Shown here one piece after another: positions 34,091-37,623 of a stretch of 64,000 nucleotides of DNA. Each line of letters opens with the position of its first letter. Position 1 is the stretch's first letter. The stretch is from Bacteroidota bacterium (GTDB lineage: Bacteria; Bacteroidota; Bacteroidia; Chitinophagales; Saprospiraceae), in the NCBI GenBank assembly GCA_016124585.1, contig WGNL01000023.1:124001-188000 (forward strand). Reading direction: 5' to 3'. A program made the position numbers and the translations under genes. A model generated the notes under the pieces. That model saw only the letters and a list, made by a program, of their open reading frames with translations. It ran no database searches and had not been told where the DNA came from.

Positions 34091-34750
34091 CTATAATCCC
34101 ACCCCATCCACCTCCCCCATCACCCTCCCCGTCTCCACCAGCGCCACGATGATTTTCTGATAATGCAATATCTCCTCAAACCCCAGCACCCGCTCCTTCC
34201 TGTCCTTTAGCCACTTCTGCGCAGGCTGGTAGCCGCCGATGTAGAAGTTCCAGGCCAGTTCCGGCACATTGGCGAAATACTGGGTGTCGTTGATGTAAAC
34301 CTTTCCATCCTCGTAGCGGGGCTTCGCCACCCGGTTATCTCCATCCACGGGGTATTGGGTGAGGTACTGCTCCACCACGGGGCTTTCCAGCAGGTGGAGC
34401 TGTCGTAGCTCGCCGCCCAAGCGCACCAATTGCCAGAACTTCCCTGCATCGCTGGGATACGGAACCCTCGGAAAGTCTATCTTCAAAAACTCCTTGTACC
34501 GCTCCCGGTAGCCGGGCGAATGCAGCACGGCGTAGATATAGTCAAGGAGGTCGAACGGGGTGAAGGTTTCGGGGGGAGTGGGGGGAGAGTAGGAACTGAC
34601 CGGGTGACTCAGAGTCACCCGGTCAGTAGCGGCGGCTTCTGGCTCGAAGTGAAGCCCCAGCCCCTTCGCTATTTGCTGCACGATGTCCATGTTTAGGTTC
34701 GGGCGGCGCTGCTGCTCGGCGAAGTAATTAGAATCATTGAATTCGGTCAT
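34091..34750 (-). pseudogene. C-terminal fragment of a type ISP/IIG restriction-modification enzyme
   Basis: A 219-residue frame matching the C-terminal end of single-chain restriction-modification enzymes (N6-adenine methylase plus specificity region): RRPNLNMDIVQQIAKGLGL, then FDLLDYIYAVLHSPGYRERY, KEFLKIDFPRVPYPSDAGKF, RLGGELRQLHLLESP, and a closing KIIVALVETGRVMGEVD. The corresponding methylase core (NPPY motif) and nuclease domain are absent. The N-terminal part of the same enzyme lies at 36139-36438 in the same orientation, and the HEPN-domain gene fills the place between. It may still be translated from ATG 34750 but cannot form a working enzyme. Confidence 0.8.
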
Positions 34751-34753
34751 CTC

Positions 34754-34768
34754 GTCAAGCTATTTTAT
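34754..34768. repeat. left imperfect direct repeat at the HEPN insertion
   Basis: GTCAAGCTATTTTAT; compare GTCGAGCATTATTTTAT at 36131-36147. The two copies differ by one substitution and a 2-base insertion and flank the HEPN coding sequence almost exactly. Confidence 0.4.
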
Positions 34769-36128
34769 CGACGATTGAATTTTTAGACCAAGGTACAAAC
34801 ACCTCACCTCCACTATGGAAAACTCCAGAACATCTGTCGTGGAATTTCCCTTCATAGCGAAGAATTTTAAGCAAAGCTAACTCCACGTACATTATTCCCA
34901 ATTGCAGAGATTCATATTTTACCATATCAGGAATTTTAGAAATCTTTTTCCTTTGTTCAGATTGAGAGTGTACAATTGCATTTCTTATTTGAACAAAGAT
35001 TTCAGGTGCATCTATTTTCAATTTGTTGTCAATAAGGTATTTTTTTAAACGATTTAGACCAATTGGTACTTCATTTGACATTTCTAATTGCGAAAGCAAT
35101 AATCTAATTTTATTGGCAGCTTGAATATTCTCAGAATCCTTGCCTAATATCAATTTTTTCTGTTCAACAATAAACCAATTATAAATCAATTCTAACGCAA
35201 TTTGCGTCATGAGAATTGAACCTTCAATAAAACCAGAATTACCATTTGCCTCAACGTACCAATGAATTGATGTTGTCAAAAAATCTCTATCATTTTCATT
35301 ATCCCAAAGTTCTTTAAAGACAGCCCACATCTCATTTAGTCCTTCAATTGAAAATTTTGGCGGCCAACTGCTTACAGACTTATATTCATCTATGAAATAG
35401 CCTGAATAATCGCACCAAACTAATTCTGTTTCAAACATCCCATGCCTGAAAATGGCTGAACACCTTCTTCCATTTAGGAAACTTAAAAAGGTAGAAAATG
35501 CATAAAGGATTTCTTTTGATTCTTCATAACTAATCCCACCGCTTTTTTTTGTGATTTCTCCACAATACAATACCATATATCCGCCTTTTGACATAAGCTG
35601 ATTATTATAATCACTAAATTTATGCCTTTTATCCAACACTATTTGGAAGCTTTTATCTTCAAAACCAATCCTATTTCTTCCTATAGTTCCTTCTTTTATT
35701 TCAATCAACTCCCCCAGAAATTCCCTAAAATTTGGAATGGAAAAGCAGATTTTGTCGACAACGATTGTCCTATCCCCCTTAACAACATCTGAGCTCAATA
35801 CACCTTCAATCTTACCATCTGAGCTTTTACTCGTTATGAAACAATTACCAAAAAAAAGGTTATTGATAAATAAACATAACTTTTCATCCACTCCCAATTT
35901 CATAAAAGACTCAAATGTAATATTAACAACCTCACCAGAAAATTTTGGCCTTGAGTTAGGAAACCATTCAAAGCATATTTTTCCCATTATTTCAAATTCC
36001 GATTTATTACATTTTAAAGTAAATATGCCAGTGTATATAAGGATGTCTTCATTTGGAGTCTCCATCTGAAGCATACATTGTTTGATAAATGAGTATTTTT
36101 CAGAAAAATTTTCAATTGCCTTTTTCAT
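34755..36128 (-). CDS. HEPN-domain protein, probable defence function (ApeA-like C-terminus)
   Basis: A 457-residue protein. The C-terminal about 200 residues resemble the HEPN module of ApeA-type proteins: SIHWYVEANGNSGFIEGSI, ALELIYNWFIVEQKKLIL, a KIRLLLSQLEMSNEVPIGLN segment and the RNase-type HEPN motif RNAIVH (Arg382 and His387), then a closing helix YESLQLGIMYVELALLKILR. The N-terminal half is beta-rich (YTGIFTLKCNKSEFEIMGKI) and may sense the invader. HEPN proteins of this kind cleave RNA in anti-phage abortive responses. The gene is clearly AT-richer than the GC-rich restriction-modification fragments on both sides, which indicates recent transfer. No cognate antitoxin is visible. Confidence 0.7.
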   Translation of the reverse strand: MKKAIENFSEKYSFIKQCMLQMETPNEDILIYTGIFTLKCNKSEFEIMGKICFEWFPNSRPKFSGEVVNITFESFMKLGVDEKLCLFINNLFFGNCFITSKSSDGKIEGVLSSDVVKGDRTIVVDKICFSIPNFREFLGELIEIKEGTIGRNRIGFEDKSFQIVLDKRHKFSDYNNQLMSKGGYMVLYCGEITKKSGGISYEESKEILYAFSTFLSFLNGRRCSAIFRHGMFETELVWCDYSGYFIDEYKSVSSWPPKFSIEGLNEMWAVFKELWDNENDRDFLTTSIHWYVEANGNSGFIEGSILMTQIALELIYNWFIVEQKKLILGKDSENIQAANKIRLLLSQLEMSNEVPIGLNRLKKYLIDNKLKIDAPEIFVQIRNAIVHSQSEQRKKISKIPDMVKYESLQLGIMYVELALLKILRYEGKFHDRCSGVFHSGGEVFVPWSKNSIVDKIA

Positions 36129-36130
36129 TG

Positions 36131-36147
36131 GTCGAGCATTATTTTAT
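36131..36147. repeat. right imperfect direct repeat at the HEPN insertion
   Basis: GTCGAGCATTATTTTAT, partner of 34754-34768; it begins 2 bases upstream of the HEPN start codon. Confidence 0.4.
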
Positions 36148-36438
36148 ATTAATTCTGAATATTGAAATCCAAATCTTTGCTCCCAAGGCGTCTCCACCAC
36201 GTGGTCTTTGTAGCCAGAAGTTGAGCGCTTGTCGCGGGTGGGCACTTTTCTTCACCTTGCTGATGTCGGCGAGGCCGCTGGGCAGCCCGAACTCGGTTTT
36301 CAGCACCTCGTCCACGGCCCGCACGATGAAGCTGACCACGGGGGCGGGCATGTACCAGACGCCCCGGAAGGTATGTTCGGTGGCGTTGCCAAGGGCGTAG
36401 CGCTGGGCGATGTTGTCGAGGTATTGGGAGAGGGTCAT
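36139..36438 (-). pseudogene. N-terminal fragment of a type ISP/IIG restriction-modification enzyme, internally deleted and frameshifted
   Basis: The frame begins with a family N-terminus, MTLSQYLDNIAQRYALGNAT followed by EHTFRG, but then jumps straight to the start of the methylase domain, VWYMPAPVVSFIVRAVDEVL followed by KTEFGLPSGLADISKVK, so the nuclease/helicase region is deleted. At an AAAA tract near 36248-36251 the frame shifts: the continuation with coding-like third-base composition is VPTRDKRSTSGYKDHVVETP in another frame. The open frame instead runs into KSAHPRQALNFWLQ and on into AT-rich DNA. Decay is complete: deletion, frameshift and truncation. The C-terminal fragment is at 34091-34750. 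Confidence 0.75.
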
Positions 36439-36843
36439 ATTTGAAGGGAGGTGCTAGCAAGACTTCGGAAGTCTTGAGCTAGTGCCGAAATGCTTGGAAG
36501 GTGAACGGGTTTCATTTTTCAGGATTCTAGTACGGTGCAAGATAGGGAAACAGCACAAAATCATCATTATTTCTAAATATTTCACGACCCGTCAAACACT
36601 AAATTTTGCACTTTGAAGCTACGATTTTGAGCTTTGAGCACAAGGATTTGCCCTTGTCCACCTGCCACCTAGTCATGTTCACAGAAGATTTAGGCTTGTT
36701 CACCTGCCATCCAGTCATGTTCATGGAAGATGTGGGCTTTGAAGGCAAAATGCAGGGATTCGAACCAGAATAGCATTAACTGAATTGGCATATAAATTGA
36801 ATATAATATTTTAATAATTTGTTTAACGCTAAAATTTTATCCA
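36439..36843. other. 405-bp intergenic stretch with a tandem repeat and tRNA-like fragment
   Basis: It contains an AAGACTT/AAGTCTT palindrome (36459-36475), two tandem 42-bp copies (36654-36737), and GGGATTCGAACC (36755-36766), which on the minus strand reads like the T arm of a tRNA but has no matching acceptor or anticodon stem. No supported gene. Confidence 0.55.
36654..36737. repeat. 42-bp tandem duplication
   Basis: Copies at 36654-36695 and 36696-36737 match at 35 of 42 positions by my count, both starting TTGTYCACCTGCCA. They are directly adjacent and of identical length. Confidence 0.85.
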
Positions 36844-37623
36844 ATGAAAGAGACATTAAGCAAAAAATCAAAATCCTACCTCCGCATCAAGAAGGTCTTG
36901 GCCGATTATCCGACGGCGGTAAGCAGTATTCCCATCCTGCAAACAGCTGCTGGGACATTCCAAACCAACCTTGACCTGGTGCAAGGCATGGAGGTGCCAG
37001 AGGTGGATGCTACCATTCCCGGCACCAACTACAAAAACAATAAGTTCGAGGAGTTTGGTGAAAATATGCTCCCAATCTGCAATGGGCTGAAGCTCTATGC
37101 CAGGGATACAGGGAATATGGTCCTGTCGGGAAAGGTGCCAGTGGTGATTACCAATTTGATGGAAGGAGACCAAATGACACAGGTTCAGCGGTTTAAGTCT
37201 ATCGTGAATGCCGCCAAGGCTATCACGCCTGCCGAACTCGTGCCCTATGGCATCACGGCCGCCGACCTGACGGCTTTGGAAGATGACATCGCCGTCTTGG
37301 AAAGCTTGATTGACGGCCCCCGCAGCGCCGTTGACGATAGGATGGTGAAGCGTGATGTGCAGGAAAAGGCGTTTGGTCAAATGGATGATTTCCTGAACGA
37401 AACCTTTGACCTTGCCGTCCGCACCCGCAAAATCGCCTTCCCCGATTTCGTGTCAGCTTATTTCTTGGCCCGCAAACTGCACGACGGCCCTGGCCCCGAT
37501 AACACTCCCGATGATGGTGAGGGCCTACAACCTAAAGAAGTCGCCGATATGCCCAGCAATAAAGATTTACAGGATGCACTGACACCGTTCGTTGACCAGC
37601 CCACCATGAACGGCGTGCATTGA
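36844..37623 (+). CDS. cytosolic helical hypothetical protein
   Basis: A 259-residue protein without signal peptide or TM helix. It is mostly helical (YLRIKKVLADYPTAVSSIPI, VQRFKSIVNAAKAITPAELV, LTALEDDIAVLESLIDGP, MDDFLNETFDLAVRTRKIAF). I do not know its family; the style recalls uncharacterised proteins of Saprospiraceae such as the truncated gene at 17772-18161, but no direct homology between the two is visible to me. It is preceded by an AT-rich region and followed by a terminator at 37690-37717, so it is probably monocistronic. Confidence 0.65.
   Translation: MKETLSKKSKSYLRIKKVLADYPTAVSSIPILQTAAGTFQTNLDLVQGMEVPEVDATIPGTNYKNNKFEEFGENMLPICNGLKLYARDTGNMVLSGKVPVVITNLMEGDQMTQVQRFKSIVNAAKAITPAELVPYGITAADLTALEDDIAVLESLIDGPRSAVDDRMVKRDVQEKAFGQMDDFLNETFDLAVRTRKIAFPDFVSAYFLARKLHDGPGPDNTPDDGEGLQPKEVADMPSNKDLQDALTPFVDQPTMNGVH

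Follow-up and report, generated by a model that had tools for sequence, protein, structure and literature searches.

Here we describe a restriction-modification (RM) gene of which two ends remain, with another gene between them. The DNA analysed is a stretch of 64,000 nucleotides (nt), here called the window, from a Bacteroidota bacterium of the Saprospiraceae (assembly GCA_016124585.1, 6.6 Mb; contig WGNL01000023.1, positions 124,001–188,000), and the locus studied lies at window positions 34091–36438. Three minus-strand frames follow one another in series: an N-terminal RM remnant of 99 amino acids (aa) at 36139–36438, a 457-aa HEPN protein—a putative stand-alone RNase-type defence gene—at 34755–36128, and a C-terminal RM remnant of 219 aa, the end of a specificity domain, at 34091–34750. 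Spacing is close, with 10 bp from the N-fragment stop to the HEPN ATG and 4 bp from the HEPN stop to the C-fragment ATG. An earlier note on this DNA had the coordinates and strands of all three frames right; it claimed that the outer two are ends of one type ISP/IIG enzyme lacking its central methylase part, and that a defence-type gene had replaced that middle at a fixed site. Below, G and L numbers denote genomes and fetched loci, respectively; G000 is the window's own genome, and G006, G008, and G011 are congeners.

The remnants are best read against an intact gene of the congener G008 (L055 8237–11440; 1,067 aa from the first ATG), which carries Type_ISP_C and N6 methylase domains; residue numbers refer to the 1,069-residue query L055:8237–11446, in which the first methionine is residue 3. 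Both remnants are colinear with this gene, on one strand and in the same order, as the note had it. The C-fragment, with a Type_ISP_C match in Pfam (E 5e-54), covers positions 880–1066 of the PADLOC type IIG model PDLC03610; its homologous part, 34094–34723, corresponds to residues 855–1063 at 79–80% identity, while the 9 codons ahead of 34723 derive from the junction. The N-fragment, found by tblastn and blastp against the intact congener gene and matching positions 312–339 of the same model (E 1.2e-9), is an RM remnant but no simple N-terminus: residues ~3–28 are fused in frame to residues 322–360, and the latter part is 95% identical to L055. Residues ~29–321 have been deleted in frame at a 7-nt repeat, CGGGGCG, which the intact G008 copy has at both places; the piece is then frameshifted, and homology continues to residue ~383 (36189), a few codons short of methylase motif I at residue 390. 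The loss therefore goes further than the methylase named in the note—residues ~29–321 and ~384–854 are missing, and with them the nuclease region, the methylase core, and most of the specificity region. The fragments hold no complete nuclease, methylase, and specificity region in one frame; they belong to type ISP/IIG in that both are homologous, in the right order, to one family member.

That the two fragments are one gene follows because PDLC03610 and a single intact congener gene span both; an origin from two different genes was considered and rejected on these grounds. Intact ISP copies are present in two congeners, G008 and G011, and a search of the window's own genome with the C-fragment returned a single match, the fragment itself. 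The gene between the ends differs in composition and is AT-rich as described, with a guanine-plus-cytosine (GC) content of 32% vs 59–62% in the flanking remnants and 47% in the window.

The motif RNAIVH, which the note had picked out, is present in the middle gene as an R-N-x3-H motif at residues 382–387, with R382, N383, and H387 invariant in 28 aligned sequences (L114 and L125, in which the matched stretch ran beyond a stop codon, were omitted, as were L116, which is the same as L063, the broken or partial L121, L122, L128, and L129, and the short L064 piece). It lies within an all-helical C-terminal domain; the AlphaFold2 model (predicted local distance difference test, pLDDT, 89.5; predicted template modelling score 0.89) has a beta-rich N-terminal part and a helical C-terminal part at ~264–422, an earlier model built from 4 sequences having reached a pLDDT of 48. 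In a structure comparison over the helical part, HEPN chains stand at ranks 1–3, 5, and 6, with scores that are middling for helical domains: 6m6w_B (HepT) at Z 8.0, root-mean-square deviation (rmsd) 2.7, and 112 aligned residues; 6tug_G (Csm6) at Z 6.6, rmsd 4.6, and 128 aligned; and 4nqf_B (a HEPN protein) at Z 6.5, rmsd 4.8, and 135 aligned. Foldseek with the whole model gave no match at E ≤ 0.001, and phmmer and profile searches of the PDB with the protein gave one weak unrelated match each.

The Pfam model HEPN_Apea (PF18739) matches 17 of the 28 family members at E ≤ 0.1 (best 4.7e-6), and ApeA_NTD1 (PF18862) matches one. ApeA combines a separate N-terminal part with a C-terminal HEPN domain that carries RxxxxH. 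It is named as a HEPN defence protein in passages of PMC10952713 and PMC13405049, and the window protein resembles it in being the product of a single gene with an N-terminal part and a C-terminal HEPN RxxxxH; it differs in falling below the family cut-off, in the near absence of ApeA_NTD1 from its relatives, and in lacking a PADLOC match. We read the window protein as a divergent ApeA-like HEPN RNase, which by analogy would act as a phage-activated RNase; family and motif point to a putative anti-phage role.

Among 60 relatives, the only HEPN homologue is in G011 (54% over residues 129–451 and 31% over 21–130, on two contig ends), and the window protein groups with this piece in the family tree (support 0.86). 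The class search, a sample of 395 genomes, added G648 (40%) and a marginal G445. A two-pattern scan of 84,980 species genomes found 33 HEPN loci, mostly Bacteroidota by record title, with a few in Cloacimonadota, Leptospirales, and Planctomycetota; a scan of the species genomes with the single HEPN protein as query gave no match, and no HEPN homologue was found in the viral contigs searched. The idea that these HEPN genes generally nest in RM genes is not supported: MmeI or ISP remnants occur at 1 of 36 loci (33 genome and 3 plasmid), with flanks of at most 6 kb and many contigs shorter, and the sole case is L116, the G011 contig. Two further loci, L125 and L131, have a type I methylase-like match nearby. 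Of the two circumstances that the earlier note set against its own reading, HEPN homologues at unrelated places do occur in other genera, but flanking fragments from different genes were not borne out.

Two side observations concern this family. In G648 (L095 6577–8523) the homologue is a 648-aa fusion whose C-terminal part, judged by eye, may be a GNAT acetyltransferase. The homologues at L103 2909–7002 and L097 5779–8274 sit between same-orientation repeats of ~200 nt and ~96 nt, which form short arrays of 4 and 3 copies with ends that look attC-like by eye; among 25 loci, simple core hexamers flank both sides in these two only. The family may travel as integron cassettes in some genera. An integron cassette was rejected for the window because ~30 bp between the HEPN stop and the RM tail leave no room for an attC site.

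Beyond what the earlier note could see, four further RM loci of the genus show the same layout, and their cargo varies. We counted close ISP loci (at least 70% identity) and MmeI_C loci across 14 genomes; distant type IIG genes stand outside this count, and RM genes without a C-terminal end are missed because the queries were C-terminal. Of the ten loci found, 4 remain intact, 1 has only its tail left, and 5 have lost the middle and hold a foreign gene between their ends. Six of the ten are ISP loci (2 intact, 3 gutted with foreign genes, and the tail), and four are MmeI_C loci (2 intact, 2 gutted with a foreign gene). L061–L064 were omitted from the locus feature table.

Two of the gutted ISP genes belong to G006. 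In L057, residues 1–208 are followed by an Eco47II-type restriction endonuclease and a C5 methylase, then by residues 863–1061; in L056, residues 1–129 are followed by a type II methylase and restriction endonuclease, then by residues 861–1062 with a frameshift. Both keep the same orientation throughout, and the cargo of each is apparently a complete type II RM system. The second G006 ISP locus was missed in a further ISP search that scored at most two candidates per genome. Among the three gutted ISP genes the right-hand breakpoints lie within ~25 bp of one another, whereas the left-hand ones vary.

The other two cases involve MmeI-type genes. In G011, the only other genome of the genus in which a HEPN homologue was found, the homologue lies in an unrelated MmeI-type host gene, between remnants that run to residue 365 and resume at 870 of 959. 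The N-piece, upstream of the HEPN homologue, ends at motif I, the C-piece lies downstream, and both are recognised, by PF20473 (start) and PF20467 (MmeI_C) and by PDLC03598 at positions 246–376 and 836–905; the case rests on two contig ends joined by abutting HEPN residues, because a contig gap cuts the HEPN gene. The window's own genome holds the second gutted MmeI-type gene (L140 3304–4407, contig C6) around a 139-aa gene with weak membrane-protein-like Pfam matches below cut-off; 114 bp of MmeI tail are duplicated at 90% identity on its flanks, and an HD-CE/HATPase gene follows.

Beyond the genus, we looked at a family sample of 398 genomes, in which 48 of 59 MmeI_C matches lie in frames of at least 800 aa; among the other 11, both ends surround a foreign gene only in the two from this genus. 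Six short MmeI_C loci fetched outside the genus include none with both ends around a foreign gene: L154 is a frameshifted gene, L155 a tail fused to an SNase domain, L156 a contig edge, and L157–L159 tails alone. The short-frame ISP loci L144–L147 and L149–L151 have no foreign gene in the middle; two of them, L144 and L145, are decayed genes that hold no foreign cargo. Separately, in a further family genome (G326, L079 3044–4798) decayed ISP ends flank a 584-aa gene with no Pfam or PADLOC match, whose position makes it a candidate defence gene; and an AbiH gene adjoins the SNase-MmeI_C fusion at L155 3138–4896, placing an MmeI tail beside a defence gene.

Defence hotspots and islands hold variable defence genes beside a conserved anchor gene. 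A comparable anchor stands beside the gutted gene—a plus-strand gene of 259 aa at 36844–37623, function unassigned, with a homologue (66%) in 1 of 30 relatives. Its DNA at 36781–37487 is 72% identical to G001, where a defence island begins ~460 bp upstream of the gene: a type I methylase, a HEC-06-type protein (DUF262-like by eye), two Pycsar cyclases, a Pycsar TIR effector, a protein with weak matches to several nuclease-type defence models, and a type II methylase. The anchor position thus holds different defence genes in two species, because G001 carries another island there, though this is one relative only. Support for the fixed site proposed in the note is correspondingly thin, and the comparison it called for, of an intact RM gene or other cargo at this place in relatives, brought the other cargo but no intact ISP gene. 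The locus is like a defence island in having variable defence genes by a conserved anchor; it differs in that exchange here also takes place inside a defence gene.

Within the C-fragment, an in-frame palindrome of 31 nt occupies the linker at 34596–34626 (hairpin scan, arms of 16 nt, 34595–34627; no strand assigned). A whole-genome pattern search places its core at 10 sites in the window's own genome, against 0 for a reversed-pattern control. In L056 and L057, the G006 copies, this linker holds another palindrome. No DNA conservation past the ISP stop was seen by eye in 28 loci, and before the ISP start the five congeneric copies have only ~6–9 nt in common.

ISP genes of relatives also come in other arrangements. 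Several ISP systems in related ARRANGEMENTS are split, with the break after residue ~629. In L073 and L076, where one part is broken, a DUF1016 (YhcG) gene separates the RM part from the specificity part; the split ISP system at L148 601–5297 also has DUF1016 (YhcG) between its parts, recognised by eye, with all parts apparently intact. L074 has KilA-N and DUF1016 genes ahead of a short tail, and L075 a DUF3800-like gene. Additionally, a Rep_1-type rolling-circle replication protein is encoded directly upstream of ISP at L082 4192–5247 and L078 5650–6699, and L089 has a similar-sized frame at that position (not family-scanned); such a neighbour is a possible carrier element for ISP genes.

Taken together, the locus is best explained by defence-gene replacement: the inside of a single-chain ISP/IIG RM gene was lost, and the gap is now occupied by a foreign gene, a putative single-gene defence system of the HEPN RNase type. 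We put the probability of this reading at roughly 85%. Two ends of one gene are present, the middle is absent, and the insert stands apart in composition, carries a HEPN motif, and is found elsewhere as homologues; the observation made in the earlier note is confirmed, and its interpretation is supported. The end states and junctions can be read from the DNA, and they suggest a most likely course, in which the RM gene, having become dispensable, would have lost its nuclease part first. Recombination would then have put a foreign gene in the place of the methylase and of most of the specificity region—probably illegitimate recombination on the left, and on the right perhaps aided by the conserved RM 3' part, because the three right-hand ISP breakpoints lie so close together. 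The ends would persist as debris, although they may still lend a promoter; the remnants are probably dead and decaying. Two gutted tails carry 12 nonsynonymous and 20 synonymous private changes, and two intact ones 1 and 17 (Fisher p 0.018, few sites), which suggests relaxed constraint on the gutted tails.

Several observations weigh on the other side. No intact ISP gene was found at the window site, and the anchor has a homologue in just the one relative; the before-state is one we infer, because no relative with an intact ISP gene there was found. The frame of the C-fragment is still open, and its pairwise Ka/Ks against the intact copy is 0.165—a value that may mostly mirror the time before gutting, although the fragment may retain some constraint. 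PADLOC and NCBIfam scans of the HEPN protein gave no match, and it scores 13.2 bits against a Pfam cut-off of 24.4 for HEPN_Apea.

The open frames and the very tight spacing fit a working operon, in which the N-terminal leader would be retained along with the C-terminal specificity fragment to position, express, or regulate the HEPN protein as an RM-guarding RNase, the role of PrrC in type I loci. Three gutted N-pieces (window, G011, and G000:C6) stay in frame across their internal deletion, split ISP systems in relatives do place a gene between RM and specificity parts (DUF1016 in L073 and L076, by eye in L148), and two of three opened plasmid relatives of the HEPN protein adjoin RM-type genes. 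However, the N-piece stops before motif I and is frameshifted, as is the equivalent C-fragment in L056; the kind of cargo differs among loci; HEPN homologues in other genera occur without adjacent ISP or MmeI remnants; and the private changes suggest relaxed constraint. We regard an operon as very improbable. A somewhat less remote, but still decidedly unlikely, account is a chance pile-up in a defence island, where internal deletions in RM genes leave neighbouring genes between the remnants. The predominance of long MmeI_C frames in the family, the restriction of paired ends around a foreign gene to this genus' two among the shorter MmeI_C matches, and the decayed ISP genes without cargo (L144 and L145) would all suit it, but in 5 of the 10 genus loci two ends in the same orientation enclose a foreign gene, and three right-hand breakpoints fall together. 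The arrangement in the window is far beyond chance.

Copies of ISP 3' ends bring in one more alternative, in which a resident RM gene receives at its 3' end, with a long duplication, a foreign gene that brings an RM tail along; the RM interior and the first tail would be deleted later. When 41 long-frame ISP loci were searched for extra copies of any gene part, 5 had one, in every case from the last 75 codons, downstream, on the same strand, and with one or two frames between; no other gene part was copied (four frameshift neighbours, L089, L092, L145, and L150, were set aside). The intervening genes are a ParE toxin gene preceded by a small frame, a RhuM-PLD gene, an HNH gene, a 106-aa frame, and a pair of frames of 98 aa and 521 aa (the last two not family-scanned). 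Under a single DNA criterion applied to 149 stretches, a 3' copy elsewhere in the stretch was found for 4 of 35 ISP genes vs 4 of 461 other long frames, with a p of 0.0012 that is a guide only because the loci are related to each other; 5' or middle copies were found for 0 of 35 ISP genes vs 3 and 1 of 461. One of those four in the 3' count is the RM part of a split ISP (L074), L066 (ISP at a contig end) is omitted, and two loci holding the same stretch twice were removed; this comparison replaces Fisher tallies of 5/41 vs 3/526 and 4/41 vs 4/526, which mixed criteria and denominators. The tail duplicated around the 139-aa gene of the window's own genome fits the same route.

Several results speak against that route for the window. 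Long target duplication at the window itself was rejected, since the HEPN flanks share only a 17-nt match (E 0.30) and the window holds a single ISP tail match; the cargo of L057 has no flanking duplication, and that of L056 a 24-bp match (E 0.013). The retained tails, at ~200–208 codons, are longer than the duplications seen (~80–230 bp), no extra copies were seen at intact MmeI loci (0 of 42), and none of the six further short MmeI_C loci outside the genus has both ends around a foreign gene. Two ISP genes are bracketed whole by repeats of 138–143 bp, but without enrichment over control frames (3 of 37 vs 16 of 323, p 0.40; MmeI 1 of 40). Integration with duplication at the window is thus unlikely, though of the alternatives to replacement it is the one we would least readily dismiss. 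The broader proposal, that foreign genes dock repeatedly in the large single-chain RM genes of these Bacteroidota—entering at the 3' end or interior, often with a copy of the RM tail, after which the core is lost—is tentative, and we consider it doubtful, if less so than integration with duplication at this one locus.

Replacement of an RM gene that leaves end fragments is already known: in Helicobacter pylori, hrgC replaced PabI-family genes, leaving 78-bp 5' and 88-bp 3' ends (Kojima & Kobayashi 2015, PMC4615327). As far as the account of hrgC and hrgA in that paper goes, the likeness to the window lies in a foreign toxin-like gene in the place of an RM system, with short 5' and 3' ends of the latter left behind; unlike that two-gene type II system, the genes described here are single-chain ISP and MmeI-type genes, with several cargos at several loci in different species. 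Long target duplication that accompanies the insertion of RM and other genes has likewise been described (Nobusato 2000 and Furuta 2010, as cited in PMC3031569). From the description there, gene-sized insertions between long direct repeats resemble what is seen at ISP 3' ends in relatives and once in the window's own genome, whereas the insertion in the window has no duplication left. Among the literature matches listed we found no description of the present layout, which is a statement about those matches and no claim of absence. As far as these searches go, two things are new: single-chain RM genes with defence cargo in place of their middle recur at several loci and in several species of one genus, and the duplicated pieces come preferentially from the ISP 3' end.

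Swapping of individual defence genes within islands is otherwise mostly inferred from tables of gain and loss; here the junctions are still readable at several loci of one genus, with different cargo. The same takeover is seen at four other RM genes of the genus, and it therefore looks like a repeated way to swap defence genes. If large RM genes do serve as docking places, they would be landing sites, more than passengers of islands, and paired RM ends would offer a search route to new defence genes, such as the 584-aa and 139-aa genes that have no family above cut-off.

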